In this document: positions 2,593 through 20,559 of the stretch, piece by piece
Layout: every line of letters begins with the position of its first letter
Position numbering within the stretch: position 1 is the stretch's first letter
Program-made: the position numbers and the translations under genes
Notes under the pieces: generated by a model
Database searches by the model: none
What the model was told of the DNA's origin: nothing
What the model saw: the letters and a program-made list of their open reading frames with translations, nothing else
Origin: a virus
Virus record (IMG/VR): IMGVR_UViG_3300034631_000060
Location: 1 to 39,986 of that record
Strand: one strand, 5' to 3'
DNA: 39,986 bases

Positions 2593-3044
2593 GGCGCGCG
2601 TCCAGATCGGGCAGCGGCGTTGGCGTGCGCCACGTCGATGATATGGCTGATGTGGTCGCGCGGTCGGGCGTGCCACGCGAGCGCGGCAAGGGCTTCGGCG
2701 AAGGCGGCGGCTTTCGCATCCTCGCCTTTCCGATCGGCGAGGGTGCGCGCCCGCGCGGCGGCGGCGTCGAGGTCCGCGCGCAGTTCGTGCGGGTAGGTGC
2801 CTTCGCGCCCGGCCGAATCGATCCACGCGGTTTCGAAGTCGTAGGGGATCGCGCCGGCTGCGATCGTGTCCCACAGACGCGACAGCGCCCGTGCGACGCG
2901 GATGCGATCGGCGGCCTGTGCGACGGTTAGCCGGCCTTTCTCGACATTCGCGGCCGCCGATGCTTCGCGCTGGGCAAGCATCTGTCGGGCGGCCGCCGCG
3001 AGGATGGGCCAGTCGGAAGCCATTGCGGGGCGGTCCGGTATCAT
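2589..3044 (-). CDS. Hypothetical alpha-helical protein (151 aa)
   Basis: The product is a mostly helical, Ala-rich soluble protein with no recognised domain, signal peptide or membrane segment. The ATG at 3044 forms an ATGA overlap with the stop of the PP-loop gene, which suggests translational coupling; a second ATG at 3023 (MASDWPIL) is an alternative start. It ends in an ATGA overlap with the 46-aa gene. It shares the operon with predicted nucleotide-binding and integration proteins, but its role is unknown. Confidence 0.7.
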   Translation of the reverse strand: MIPDRPAMASDWPILAAAARQMLAQREASAAANVEKGRLTVAQAADRIRVARALSRLWDTIAAGAIPYDFETAWIDSAGREGTYPHELRADLDAAAARARTLADRKGEDAKAAAFAEALAALAWHARPRDHISHIIDVAHANAAARSGRAP

Positions 3045-4246
3045 GACCCGACCAGTTCCCGAAACAGAATGGGTTGTTCCGATCCGTCTGGATAGACGCT
3101 GTCGAGCCACGCTGCCGCGCTGGGTTCGTCGCCGTCCCACTTGTCCGGGAAGGTCCGGGCGGCAATCAGGTCGCGGATGCGCGCTTCCTCTTCCTTGTTA
3201 ATAAGGTCGACACTGGCGCGGTGTTGAATGTCCAGAATGCGGTCTAGCGCCTCGCTGCGCGCCTCCAGAGTAAGCGGCCCCATGCGCTGCGGGTTCTTTG
3301 CGATAGAACCGTCTTTCAGACGCTCGACGCCGCGCTTGCGGAGGCGTTGAGCCGGTAGCCGCATCCATCGATAGATGGGCTTGAGTTCGAGTAGCGGTGC
3401 AAGATGCGCCCAGCGTGGCATCTGAATCACGATTTCCAGCGCCGTGTCTTTCTCCGTGAGAGGGCAGGCGATGCAACCGGTGCGAGCGGCGATGTCGGCG
3501 GCGTCGTCACCGCCATAGGCGTCGCCCATGATCGCGATCGGCCATTCGCCATATTCCGGCAGATAGGCGGCGCGGGCGATCCAGTCCCAGACGTGGCAGA
3601 CGCGCCAGTGCAGAATGGGAGCGAGCGTTGCGATGCGGCCTTTGATGCCCTTCGCTTCGGGTAGCACCTGTTGATACCAGCCCTGCCCGCACTCTGCGCC
3701 GTCTTTGGAGCAGGACATGCTAATGCGGCCATCACGTACGGCGCTTTCGCCTTCGCGAACGCCGGTAATCATCAAGGCGCTTCCGGCCATTTCGGCGATA
3801 GCTTTGCCCAGCGCGGCCGACATCGGATCGACCTTGATCTGGCGGGTACACCAACGCAGCGTGTTGTTGTTGGGCGGCGGTACGCCGCGTCCGAGGATAT
3901 AGACCATGAAGCGCTGGTCGATTGGCGCGCAGACAACGTGCAGTGCGATCCAGTTGCGCTGGCGCAGTCGCTCCATGACCAGTTCTGCCGCGTGTTGGAT
4001 CGGCGGCAGTTCCTGACGTGTATCCGCGTAAAAGACATGCAGCACTTCGGGCTGCGGGATGCGGCCGGTGTCGATAAGGTGGATTACAAGGGTCAGCGTG
4101 GCGGTGCTGTCCTTTCCGCCCGACCACGCAATCGCGTAGTGGCCGTGGCGCGACCAGTAAGATACTAGCGACGCGACGGTCAGGTCGATCGCCTCGTCCA
4201 AGTCGATGAATGCCGCGCTGGTGAAAAGGTTCGCGATGCCGGTCAT
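3041..4246 (-). CDS. PP-loop ATPase, PAPS reductase/DndC-like
   Basis: The 401-aa protein carries the PP-loop SGGKDS at residues 42-47, the ATP-pyrophosphatase signature of PAPS reductases, ATP sulfurylase-like enzymes and DndC. The later GCIACPL followed by EKD resembles the cysteine-bearing region of DndC, which takes part in DNA phosphorothioation; further cysteines occur in LRWCTRQ and CSKDGAECG. A metal or Fe-S role is possible. The ATG at 4246 has GAGG 6 nt upstream; the upstream extension is low-quality sequence. No dndB, dndD or dndE partner is in the window, so the substrate is unknown. It lies 7 nt after the zinc-finger gene and is coupled to the 151-aa gene. Confidence 0.85.
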   Translation of the reverse strand: MTGIANLFTSAAFIDLDEAIDLTVASLVSYWSRHGHYAIAWSGGKDSTATLTLVIHLIDTGRIPQPEVLHVFYADTRQELPPIQHAAELVMERLRQRNWIALHVVCAPIDQRFMVYILGRGVPPPNNNTLRWCTRQIKVDPMSAALGKAIAEMAGSALMITGVREGESAVRDGRISMSCSKDGAECGQGWYQQVLPEAKGIKGRIATLAPILHWRVCHVWDWIARAAYLPEYGEWPIAIMGDAYGGDDAADIAARTGCIACPLTEKDTALEIVIQMPRWAHLAPLLELKPIYRWMRLPAQRLRKRGVERLKDGSIAKNPQRMGPLTLEARSEALDRILDIQHRASVDLINKEEEARIRDLIAARTFPDKWDGDEPSAAAWLDSVYPDGSEQPILFRELVGS

Positions 4247-4253
4247 TGTTGCC

Positions 4254-4637
4254 TCAAAGCGGATCGAACCCGGTGCGGTAGCGCCGGGCGAGATATTCGG
4301 GGTGGTCCATCCGGCCGGCTGCGCGATCTTCGTCGCGCCAGCGCTGGATAAGGGCGGCGGCTTCGCTGGCGGCGCGCGCGCCGGTTGTCCGGTCGCCTCG
4401 CGTTCCGTTGCGCGTGACGCGGGCGGCGATGGCAAGCGGGGTCAGCACCCGGCCGCGCACGGCCGCCCGACCATTCCATGCGTCGCGGTGGGTGACGGTG
4501 CAAAACAGCTGGCCGGGATGCCGCCGCGTGAAGGGCGACAGGCATTCGGGGCACAAGGGCCGGGTGTCGGTGGTGGCGGAAACGGGGGGCGTCGTGCTGA
4601 CGCGCGTTTCCGGCGGTCCTTGTACCGAGGACTTCAC
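4254..4637 (-). CDS. Small zinc-finger protein (127 aa)
   Basis: A likely zinc-binding module lies at residues 29-50: CPEC, then FC and VTH, giving Cys29, Cys32, Cys46 and His50. A basic helical C-terminus follows. Such treble-clef or ribbon modules are frequent in small phage proteins that bind nucleic acid, but no specific family is recognised. The GTG start at 4637 overlaps the previous stop as GTGA. A competing minus-strand frame over the same DNA gives unconvincing protein. Confidence 0.7.
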   Translation of the reverse strand: MKSSVQGPPETRVSTTPPVSATTDTRPLCPECLSPFTRRHPGQLFCTVTHRDAWNGRAAVRGRVLTPLAIAARVTRNGTRGDRTTGARAASEAAALIQRWRDEDRAAGRMDHPEYLARRYRTGFDPL

Positions 4638-16532: not shown

Positions 16533-17852
16533 ATGGGACGTTTGACGAACGCCCTTCGGGCGCTGACCGCGCCAGCTTCGCCCGCGATCGAGGCGAACGG
16601 CAGCTACGGCCCGTCGACCAGCGTCGGCGGCGGCGATGGCTGGTTGGTCCGCATGATGGGCGGCGGCAAGACGAAGGCCGGGCCGCAGGTGTCGGAGCAT
16701 GGCGCGATCTACGCCCCGGCGGTCTATGCGTGCATCAACCGCATTTCGAACCCCATCGCGCATTTCCCGCTGGAAATCCGGCAGGCGCTGCCCGGTGGCG
16801 GATCGGTGAAGGTCACCGAACACCCGATGTCGCAGCGGCTTGGCCTGCGGCCGAACGACTTCATGTCGTCGCGCACGCTGCGCAAGACGACGCAGGGCCA
16901 TGCCCTGTTGTGGGGCAACGGGTATCAGGAAATCGAGCGCAACGGGCGGGGTGAAGCGGTCGGGCTGTGGCCGCTGCTGCCCGATCGCACCCGGCCGCAG
17001 CGGGTCGGCGATGACCTGGTCTACCGTACCAACATCGACGGCAAGACGTTCCAGATTGACGCCGGGAACGTCGCGCACATCATGGACCTAAGCCACGATG
17101 GCTACATGGGCTATTCGCAGGTAGCGGTTGCCCGGCAGGCCATGGGCATGGCGCTGGCGCTGGAGGAGTTCGGGGCCAAGTTTTTCGCCAACGACATGAA
17201 GTCGGGCGGGTTCCTGATGCACCCCGGAAAACTTAGTCCGCGCGCCCGTGGCAATGTCAGCGGCCCCGGCGGGGAGAAGCGAGCGGCACCGGAAAACCCG
17301 GCGGCGGCGGTGGAGACGCAGGGCGGGCTGGACAATGCCCACCGGGTCAAGGTGCTGGAGGAGGGCATGAAATATGTCCAGACGACCATCCCCCCGGAGG
17401 ATGCCCAGTTCCTTGGCACCCGTGAGTTCCAAATCGCAGAAATCGCCCGGATGTACGACGTGCCGCTGGTGATGCTGCAAAGCCATGAGAAGTCGACCAG
17501 CTGGGGAAGCGGCATCGAGCAGCTGATGCTGGGGTTCATCCGGCAGACGGTGGCACCATGGGTCGAGGCGACCGAACAGGAATATAACTGGAAACTGTTC
17601 ACCGCCGCCGAGCGGGAGCGCGGCCTGTTCGTCAAATTCAACATGAATGCGCTGCTGCGCGGCGACATGGCCGCCCGCGCCGCCTTCTACAAGGCGATGT
17701 TCGAACTGGGGATGACCATCAACCAAATCCTCGCGCTGGAGGACATGAACGGCATCGGCGCGGAAGGCGACATCAATTTCGTGTCGAACAACGTCCAGAC
17801 GCTGGCCGCCGCGCTGGCCGCCGCTGGCACCGATCAGGGAGCGACCGCATGA
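16533..17852 (+). CDS. Portal protein (HK97 family)
   Basis: The 439-aa protein has the family pattern: GAIYAPAVYACINRISNPIA near the N-terminus, then GNGYQEIERNGRG, and in the second half GLDNAHRVKVLEEGMKYV, TTIPPEDAQFLGTREFQ and YDVPLVML. It would form the dodecameric portal ring at one capsid vertex. Between ARGNV and GGLDNAH there is an extra Gly/Pro/Ala-rich segment of about 20 residues that looks like an insertion in a loop. The ATG at 16533 follows the terminase stop by 1 nt; ATG 16521 in the same frame is possible. The end overlaps the protease start as ATGA. Confidence 0.93.
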   Translation: MGRLTNALRALTAPASPAIEANGSYGPSTSVGGGDGWLVRMMGGGKTKAGPQVSEHGAIYAPAVYACINRISNPIAHFPLEIRQALPGGGSVKVTEHPMSQRLGLRPNDFMSSRTLRKTTQGHALLWGNGYQEIERNGRGEAVGLWPLLPDRTRPQRVGDDLVYRTNIDGKTFQIDAGNVAHIMDLSHDGYMGYSQVAVARQAMGMALALEEFGAKFFANDMKSGGFLMHPGKLSPRARGNVSGPGGEKRAAPENPAAAVETQGGLDNAHRVKVLEEGMKYVQTTIPPEDAQFLGTREFQIAEIARMYDVPLVMLQSHEKSTSWGSGIEQLMLGFIRQTVAPWVEATEQEYNWKLFTAAERERGLFVKFNMNALLRGDMAARAAFYKAMFELGMTINQILALEDMNGIGAEGDINFVSNNVQTLAAALAAAGTDQGATA

Positions 17853-18742
17853 AATATCCGCATATCCTCGCCGCGTTCGCCAGCGAGTTCTGGGCGATGG
17901 AGCCGGGCAAGCTGGCGGCGGTGATCGATCTGCTGGCGATGCAGGCCGATGGCATGAAGTTCGGCGCGGACGAAATCGAGGCGCGGATTTCACCCGCCAC
18001 GGCTTCGGCCGTGGCGCGCAAGGAAGGTGCCGTCGCGGTCGTGCCGCTGCGCGGGATCATCTCGCCGCGCGTAAGCATGACGCCGAACAGTTCGACCGGC
18101 GGCGGCGCGACCGCCGAAGGGTTCGCCGCATCGATCGACCAGATGGCGGCCGACGACAGCGTCAAGGCGATCATCGTCGATGCCGATACGCCGGGCGGTA
18201 ACGTCCTGGGGGTCGACGAAGCGTCGGCGGCGGTAGCGGCCGTGCGGGGCATCAAGCCGATCGTCGTGCAGGTGCAGGGCAATCTGGCGAGCGCCGGCTA
18301 CTGGGTCGGGTGTTCGGCGGACGAAATCGTCATGTCGCCCAGTTCGGCGGCCGGCGCGATCGGCGTCCGTACCGCCTATGACGACATGACCGCCGCGCTG
18401 GAAAAACAGGGCGTGTCGCGCGAAATCCTGTCCGCTGGCCGGTTCAAGGGCGAAGGGCTGCTAGGCCCGCTGTCCGACGAAACGCGGGCGTACATGCAGG
18501 GCCGCATCGACGAATATTACGGGATGTTCGTCGACCGGGTCGCCGCCGGACGCGGCGTTACCGCCAGCGAGGTCCGCGACGGCTTCGGGCAAGGCCGGAT
18601 GCTGGGCGCGAAAGCGGCGGTCCGGGAGAAGATGGCGGACCGCGTCGCCACCATGGCCGAGACGCTGGCGCGGTTCGGTGCCGGCGGCCCATCGCGTCGC
18701 CTCGCGCCCGAACGCGAAAAGCGGGCGCTGGCGCTCCGATAG
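17849..18742 (+). CDS. S49-family prohead protease
   Basis: The 297-aa ClpP/SppA-fold serine peptidase has Ser148 in NLASAGYW as nucleophile and Lys200 in GRFKGEG as general base, with the oxyanion loop near DTPGGN (113-118). In phages of this type it cleaves scaffold and capsid delta domains during head maturation. It is coupled by ATGA to the portal gene. Its last 13 codons lie inside the first copy of the 285-bp tandem repeat; the stop at 18740-18742 is intact, so the enzyme itself is unaffected. Confidence 0.92.
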   Translation: MKYPHILAAFASEFWAMEPGKLAAVIDLLAMQADGMKFGADEIEARISPATASAVARKEGAVAVVPLRGIISPRVSMTPNSSTGGGATAEGFAASIDQMAADDSVKAIIVDADTPGGNVLGVDEASAAVAAVRGIKPIVVQVQGNLASAGYWVGCSADEIVMSPSSAAGAIGVRTAYDDMTAALEKQGVSREILSAGRFKGEGLLGPLSDETRAYMQGRIDEYYGMFVDRVAAGRGVTASEVRDGFGQGRMLGAKAAVREKMADRVATMAETLARFGAGGPSRRLAPEREKRALALR

Positions 18743-19277
18743 AATCCAACTTCCGTTCGCGGAAGGGACGCCCCGCTTGCCCGTCGGAGCAAGCGGTCGA
18801 GGGCGCGTGTCCGACGATTTCGACACCAATGGCCTGCGGGCCGGGAGATTATTTCATGCGGAAGATCATGCTTCTCGCGGCCGCATCCATGGCCGCGAGC
18901 ATCGGACCGATGACGGCGGCCGAACGCCAGCGCGGGCGTTACATGCGCGATGCCACCGGCCATCCGCCGTCCGCACTGGCGACGCTTCGCGCCCGAACGC
19001 GAAAAGCGGGCGCTGGCGCTCCGATAGAATCCAACTTCCGTTCGCGGAAGGGACGCCCCGCTTGCCCGTCGGAGCAAGCGGTCGAGGGCGCGTGTCCGAC
19101 GATTTCGACACCAATGGCCTGCGGGCCGGGAGATTATTTCATGCGGAAGATCATGCTTCTCGCGGCCGCATCCATGGCCGCGAGCATCGGACCGATGACG
19201 GCGGCCGAACGCCAGCGCGGGCGTTACATGCGCGATGCCACCGGCCATCCGCCGTCCGCACTGGCGACGCTTCGCGC
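18702..19277. repeat. Perfect 285-bp tandem duplication at the protease-capsid junction
   Basis: Copy 1 (18702-18986) and copy 2 (18987-19271) read as identical, and the first 6 bases (TCGCGC) occur a third time at 19272-19277. This is the signature of a duplication through 6-bp microhomology. The unit contains the last codons and stop of the protease gene, the intergenic SD, and the first 44 codons of the capsid gene. As 285 is divisible by 3 the capsid frame stays open across both copies. Confidence 0.97.
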
Positions 19278-20559
19278 ATCGCGGCTTACTCTTGTCGCGA
19301 CCATGCGCGGCATGATCGACGCCGCCGAGGGCGAGGACCGCGACTTCACTGCCGAGGAAGCGACCGCCTATGACGCGCACAAGGCGAAGCTGGACGCGCT
19401 CGACACCCGGATCGGTCGCCTGACCGGCGTCGAGGCGGCCGAGGCGGCGGGCAATGTCACGACGCGCGCCGTCGCCCGTGGCAACGGCGTCGCGACCGTC
19501 CCGCAGGGGCCGCACGGGGCCAAGGAGTTCGAAAGCATCGGCGAGTTCATGGCGGCGGTTCGGTTCAATCCGAACGACCAGCGCCTGAACTATTTCGAAG
19601 GCGCGGGCGAGAATGCCACGGACCTCACCGAAATCGGCGCTGAACTGCGCATGGACCAGCATCAGACGGGCGGCGGCTTCCTCGTTCCGACGCAGTTCCG
19701 GCAGGAAATCCTGCGCATCGAGCCGCAGGAAGTGCTGGTTCGCCCCCGCGCCGAAGTGATCCCGGCCGGGTCGCCGCCGGATGCCGCACTGACGATCCCG
19801 GCCCTCAACCAGTCGGGTACGGCCCCTTCGAACATGTTCGGCGGCGTGCAGGTCCAGTGGATCGGCGAAGGCGGTAACAAGCCGGAGACGGATGCGGCCA
19901 TCGGTTCGGTCACGCTGGAACCGAAGGAAGTGGCCGGTACGACGGTCGTGACCGACAAGATGCTGCGCAACTGGGGCGCGGCCGGTCCGTTCCTCGAAAA
20001 ACTGCTGCGCGGTGCGGTGACGCAGGCCGAGGATTATGCGTTCCTGCGCGGCGACGGTATCGCCAAGCCGCTGGGCGCGATCAACTCGCCGGCCATGTAC
20101 TACGTCAACCGGCGTGGTGCGGGACAGGTGCAGTATCTCGACCTGGTGGACATGGTCGCGCACCTGCTGATGCGTGGCGGCACGCCTGTCTGGTCGATGC
20201 CGCAGGGGGCGCTGCCCCAGATCGCCACCCTGCGCGATCCCGAAGGCCGCTACATCTGGAAGCCCGATGCACGCGATGGTTTCGCGGGCACGCTGCTGGG
20301 CTATCCGGTTCGCTGGAACAACCGCGCACCGGCGCTGGGCGTGAAGGGCGACATCACCCTGATCGACTGGTCGGCCTACATCATCAAGGATGGCAGCGGT
20401 CCGTATGTCGCGGCGTCGGAGCATGTCCTGTTCCGCCAGAACAAGACGGTCCTCAAAATCTTCTGGAACGTCGACGGCAAGCCGTGGCTGTCGGCGCCGA
20501 TCAAGGAAGAGAACGGATGGGACGTTTCGCCCTTCGTCGGCCTGACCGTCCCGGCCTGA
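18856..20559 (+). CDS. Major capsid protein (HK97 fold), duplicated 5' end
   Basis: The core from QFRQEILRIEPQEVLV to the C-terminus WDVSPFVGLTVPA is a typical HK97-type capsid protein, preceded by a helical delta-like region (ATMRGMIDAAEGEDRDFTAE). Two identical starts exist because of the tandem duplication. ATG 19141 gives a normal 472-aa protein; ATG 18856 gives 567 aa with a 95-residue insert made of repeated N-terminus and translated intergenic DNA. Both have GGGAG about 8 nt upstream. The 19141 start probably makes the functional subunit. An extended subunit could be tolerated if the protease removes the N-terminus, but that is inference. Confidence 0.93.
   Translation: MRKIMLLAAASMAASIGPMTAAERQRGRYMRDATGHPPSALATLRARTRKAGAGAPIESNFRSRKGRPACPSEQAVEGACPTISTPMACGPGDYFMRKIMLLAAASMAASIGPMTAAERQRGRYMRDATGHPPSALATLRASRLTLVATMRGMIDAAEGEDRDFTAEEATAYDAHKAKLDALDTRIGRLTGVEAAEAAGNVTTRAVARGNGVATVPQGPHGAKEFESIGEFMAAVRFNPNDQRLNYFEGAGENATDLTEIGAELRMDQHQTGGGFLVPTQFRQEILRIEPQEVLVRPRAEVIPAGSPPDAALTIPALNQSGTAPSNMFGGVQVQWIGEGGNKPETDAAIGSVTLEPKEVAGTTVVTDKMLRNWGAAGPFLEKLLRGAVTQAEDYAFLRGDGIAKPLGAINSPAMYYVNRRGAGQVQYLDLVDMVAHLLMRGGTPVWSMPQGALPQIATLRDPEGRYIWKPDARDGFAGTLLGYPVRWNNRAPALGVKGDITLIDWSAYIIKDGSGPYVAASEHVLFRQNKTVLKIFWNVDGKPWLSAPIKEENGWDVSPFVGLTVPA

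Follow-up and report, generated by a model that had tools for sequence, protein, structure and literature searches.

Gene content of the capsid locus

The window, by which we mean the whole stretch of 39,986 bp that was analysed, is an IMG/VR virus record. It has a GC content of 66% and carries the gene set of a temperate siphophage, with integrase, repressor, primase, TerL, portal, S49 protease, capsid protein, tail genes and endolysin. The host of this phage is Sphingomonas-like. In the closest records the capsid protein is 77-81% identical to that of the window, and one of these records sits in a Sphingomonas MAG. The gene adjoining the integrase (3041-4435, minus strand) is phosphoadenosine phosphosulfate reductase-like (phrog_12882, 7.8e-204). 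The order TerL-portal-protease-MCP is shared with the Caulobacter phages TMCBR2, Kronos and W2, the MCPs of which are 47-49% identical to that of the window. However, the MCPs of these phages start with MNLAALRA, without hydrophobic extension and without duplication. The following features were identified at the protease-capsid boundary.

17849-18742, plus strand: S49-family head maturation protease, intact, 297 aa (PF01343, 1e-30; phrog_53 head maturation protease, 2.5e-68)
18702-18986, plus strand: tandem unit copy 1, with the last 13 protease codons and stop, the leader, the SD and the first 44 capsid codons (self-match at offset 285)
18743-18855, plus strand: capsid leader copy 1, SD GGGAG at 18843-18847 (sequence)
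18856-20559, plus strand: 567-aa open frame beginning at the upstream start, which places 95 additional residues ahead of the normal capsid protein (translation)
18987-18992, plus strand: novel junction, microhomology TCGCGC common to both parental breakpoints, with further copies at 18702-18707 and 19272-19277 (291 nt matching exactly, 285 + 6)
18987-19271, plus strand: tandem unit copy 2, identical to copy 1 (self-match at offset 285)
19028-19140, plus strand: capsid leader copy 2, SD GGGAG at 19128-19132, 8 nt ahead of the ATG (sequence; aligned with relatives)
19059-19080, plus strand: conserved leader hairpin, copy-1 equivalent at 18774-18795 (RNAalifold, 12 sequences)
19116-19127, plus strand: GGCC-TGCG-GGCC hairpin abutting the SD, copy-1 equivalent at 18831-18842 (alignment of 12 relatives)
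19141-19278, plus strand: N-terminal extension of 46 residues, with a basic start, a hydrophobic stretch, then ERQRGRYMRD...LATLRA (alignment with TMCBR2 and Kronos)
19141-20559, plus strand: major capsid protein from the normal start, 472 aa, HK97 fold (PF05065, 3.7e-37; Foldseek against PDB; start kept in relatives)

A 285-bp tandem duplication bounded by microhomology

Comparison of the locus with itself at an offset of 285 gave an exact match over 291 nt (18702-18992 and 18987-19277, 100% identity). This length corresponds to the 285-bp unit plus the hexamer TCGCGC, which is present at 18702, 18987 and 19272. A preliminary description of the locus had proposed identical, directly adjacent copies at 18702-19277 with this hexamer as 6-bp microhomology at their bounds. 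The exact match bears out both points, and the span is correct (576 = 2 x 285 + 6). That description also gave the unit content rightly, as the protease 3' end, the SD and the first 44 capsid codons. Each copy contains the final 41 nt of the S49 protease gene, the entire 113-nt leader with its SD and the initial 44 to 46 capsid codons. The upstream breakpoint lies within the protease gene, 13 codons ahead of the stop, and the downstream breakpoint directly 3' of the LATLRA codons of the capsid gene. No gene was lost: copy 1 completes an intact protease gene, and copy 2 an intact capsid gene that retains a leader and SD of its own. Because this complete downstream copy survives, the duplication should do little harm. 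An old, diverged duplication was rejected since the copies are identical, and a chance repeat was rejected since the unit is the only exact direct repeat of at least 30 nt in the 718,192 bases of the window and its relatives.

In all 71 related loci that span both the end of the protease gene and the start of the capsid gene, some of them near-identical, the unit is present in single copy as judged by the protease-capsid gap. In the 32 extension-bearing loci among these, the gap is 83-109 nt long. A search of IMG/VR with the junction 31-mer gave no match. Searching the capsid protein in about 400 genomes from the family of the Sphingomonas MAG returned two matches, the MAG itself and one 58% relative too distant for dating, and in a class-wide search with a TM-type capsid the known MAG alone matched. 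The event had been described as very recent, or else as active amplification and contraction. With identical copies in the window and a single copy in the junction-spanning relatives, we read the duplication as private and recent, where private holds relative to relatives at up to 81% identity, as near-identical records may be left out of searches.

The duplication looks real and of a known kind. At the base composition of the window, a random junction would have a matching run of at least 6 bases with a probability near 0.0024. Such microhomology is thus improbable by chance, which indicates a real recombination mechanism. Tandem amplifications in phage T4 are bounded by 6-10 bp of microhomology and leave one copy of the homology between the repeats (PMC9391042). 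The window likewise shows adjacent, identical direct repeats, short homology at the breakpoints with one copy kept at the junction, and an ancestral single copy as seen in the 71 relatives. In contrast, the T4 amplifications span whole genes and are selected for anti-toxin dosage (PMC9391042), whereas the unit described here is 285 bp long, crosses a gene boundary, is present in two copies and has no known selection.

Two identical initiation regions precede the capsid frame

From either start, 18856 (567 aa) or 19141 (472 aa), the frame runs open to 20559, and no stop in the capsid frame occurs within the unit. The in-frame 567-aa variant beside the normal 472-aa form, as first described, is therefore encoded, and the two proposed capsid start sites correspond to two initiation regions made identical by the 291-nt match. 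The two starts share about 150 nt of upstream and 136 nt of downstream context, and the normal start retains its upstream context. The duplicated leader carries two hairpins that recur across the window clade. In the hairpin at 19059-19080, four helix pairs show two-sided changes that keep pairing (RNAalifold, 12 sequences). The hairpin at 19116-19127 is present in most of the 12 relatives, without two-sided changes. Folded alone, the window leader is not more stable than its shuffles (z -0.66), and an Rfam search of the region gave no match above gathering scores. As both hairpins are duplicated, both starts lie in the same local context, and we infer that both can be used. Their relative use is not predictable, however, because the second start is located inside a translated frame.

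The additional residues belong to the pro-region

In the 576-aa reading from 18829, residue 282 is the first of the PF05065 shell domain, which places the domain start at about residue 178 of the 472-aa form. All 95 extra residues are thus N-terminal to the HK97 shell domain, in the pro-region. A model of the 472-aa form was of moderate quality (mean pLDDT 68), with a long helical pair at residues 41-105 (helices 41-64 and 71-105, pLDDT about 85-91). An AlphaFold prediction of the long form from one sequence was uninformative (mean pLDDT 35). With the capsid model, the best Foldseek match in the PDB was the RcGTA capsid (E 9.5e-14), and the HK97 and T5 capsids were also matched. Residues 43-101 of the capsid protein resemble the EcCI2 (cf-PICI) head protein. 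As in HK97, phi12 and RcGTA, an HK97 fold is combined with a helical N-terminal pro-region and with a protease gene directly upstream. The window differs from HK97-type precursors in that its protease is of the S49 family, and in that its clade adds a 46-residue hydrophobic extension ahead of the ordinary start, to which the duplicated frame would add 95 further residues.

From what is known of these families, the S49 head maturation protease encoded directly upstream of the capsid gene is expected to remove the pro-region. Since the extra residues are located there, the mature shell protein derived from the 567-aa and from the 472-aa precursor is expected to be the same. A mixed mature capsid, as considered in the preliminary description, is therefore not supported. 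A mixed procapsid has a precedent in phi12 and SaPIbov5, where CP and Ccm assemble into one particle. Their delta domains, 128 and 87 residues long, are both removed (PMC8569155). The window would resemble that system, as predicted from its genes, in having two capsid proteins with delta domains of unequal length in one particle. The phi12 and SaPIbov5 proteins come from two different genes with different shell domains, whereas the shell domains here would be identical. By analogy, the 567-aa precursor could enter proheads and yet yield the same mature shell protein.

Origin and likely consequence of the duplication

Our preferred reading, to which we give a probability of about two in three, is a recent tandem duplication by illegitimate recombination, with both starts usable, the extra pro-region removed and a near-neutral outcome. 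Two TCGCGC hexamers spaced by 285 bp would have recombined, so that the protease tail, the leader and the first 44-46 capsid codons came to lie twice in succession. Downstream, a complete capsid gene preceded by a leader and SD of its own would still direct synthesis of the ordinary 472-aa precursor. The upstream copy, with its identical initiation region, could also start translation, yielding a 567-aa precursor in which the N-terminal extension is doubled. The additional residues would lie in the scaffold-like (delta) pro-region and be removed by the neighbouring S49 protease. As they sit in a region expected to be cleaved off, the change is probably near-neutral, and it would be lost again through recombination between the 291-bp repeats.

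It is unlikely, though with some real chance, that the duplication is instead an assembly product, in which the dominant phage has a single copy and the second arose from a graph loop passed twice or from promotion of a junction that was chimeric or belonged to a minority. The 291-nt repeat exceeds most short reads, the relatives are single copy, and a loop would give perfect identity. On the other hand, a loop requires the junction sequence to be really present in the reads, and assemblers collapse such repeats more often than they invent them. The low chance of a 6-bp microhomology in a random chimera also argues against this explanation, and the microhomology fits the biology documented in T4 (PMC9391042). 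We infer that the contig represents real DNA.

Selection for a mixed capsid had also been raised. The duplication might be kept if assembly gains from having long and normal precursors together, or from more frequent capsid initiation. The frame remains open, both initiation regions are identical, and the phi12/SaPIbov5 procapsids do co-assemble capsid proteins with unequal delta domains. However, an in-frame, stop-free duplication spanning the start would arise by chance with a probability of about 0.36 x 1/3 = 0.12, so that the open frame does not show selection and this claim is not supported. In addition, the arrangement is common to no relative, copies without divergence carry no mark of age or specialisation, and in phi12/SaPIbov5 both delta domains are removed. 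We consider a selected two-start capsid improbable. Active amplification and contraction are possible, as an identity of 291 bp allows. Regular expansion and contraction of the unit as a switch tuning capsid translation would be favoured by a frame-neutral unit that leaves the last start intact at any copy number, and by 291 bp being sufficient for homologous recombination. With none of the 71 relatives having more than one copy and no accumulated variants, such a switch is highly improbable. The duplication itself shows, in a clean natural example, how microhomology drives tandem duplication in a temperate phage.

An N-terminal extension of the capsid protein

The MNLAALRA start of the Caulobacter phage capsid proteins aligns with window residues 41-46 (TMCBR2 and Kronos), and a cf-PICI head protein of solved structure can be aligned from residue 43 onwards. 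Because these proteins align only from residues 41 and 43, residues 1-46 form an extension. It is conserved in the window clade, with a pN/pS of about 0.3-0.5 against relatives. Of the 76 capsid proteins in the related set, that of the window among them, 42 have an ordinary start, 12 a short extension (the window clade) and 22 a strongly hydrophobic extension; these counts are approximate, as starts were called with a simple SD rule and types with hydropathy thresholds. All 34 extensions have at least one K/R in the first 9 residues and no D/E in the first 20. With respect to a possible membrane-inserted segment (signal peptide or signal anchor), the 19-residue hydropathy is at least 2 in 22 of the 34, whereas it stays at 0.9-1.7 in the window clade. 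In close pairs of the hydrophobic type, pN/pS is 0.17-0.63. By parsimony, the hydrophobic and ordinary types interchanged 15 times, and well-supported branches of a quick tree force at least 8 of these changes. From these patterns, the extensions are under purifying selection and have been swapped repeatedly. As nearly all types have an S49 protease encoded upstream, the extension does not go with a different protease.

The downstream breakpoint of the duplication coincides with the boundary of the extension module, which may be a coincidence as only one event is concerned. A broader and unlikely reading is that a swappable hydrophobic N-terminal module with its structured leader holds proheads of many alphaproteobacterial siphophages at the membrane, or at a hydrophobic core, until cut by the S49 protease, and that it was doubled here at a natural boundary, giving proheads built of one- and two-module precursors. 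T4 proheads initiate on the inner membrane via the portal (PMC9958956), and membrane-linked prohead assembly would thus have a precedent, but by a different route. A literature search of partial coverage returned nothing on a hydrophobic or signal-like N-terminus of phage capsid proteins, which is not proof of novelty. The extension may matter more than the duplication itself and deserves follow-up. If capsids do carry exchangeable hydrophobic N-termini, where HK97-type proheads are built becomes a testable question, as does why only some relatives need the extension.

Two further observations concern the relatives. A strongly hydrophobic, signal-like extension, in frame and with an SD (Kyte-Doolittle 19-residue mean 2.0-3.0), is found at loci L039, L046, L048, L049, L053, L054, L057, L061, L065-L069, L071-L073, L075, L081, L083, L085, L086 and L102, while sister phages are without it. 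Finally, in the close relatives L058 (2600-3300) and L071 (1-600), the flanks match well, and the leader, the extension and the opening codons of the delta region are strongly diverged in between, a difference that resembles the outcome of a cassette exchange.
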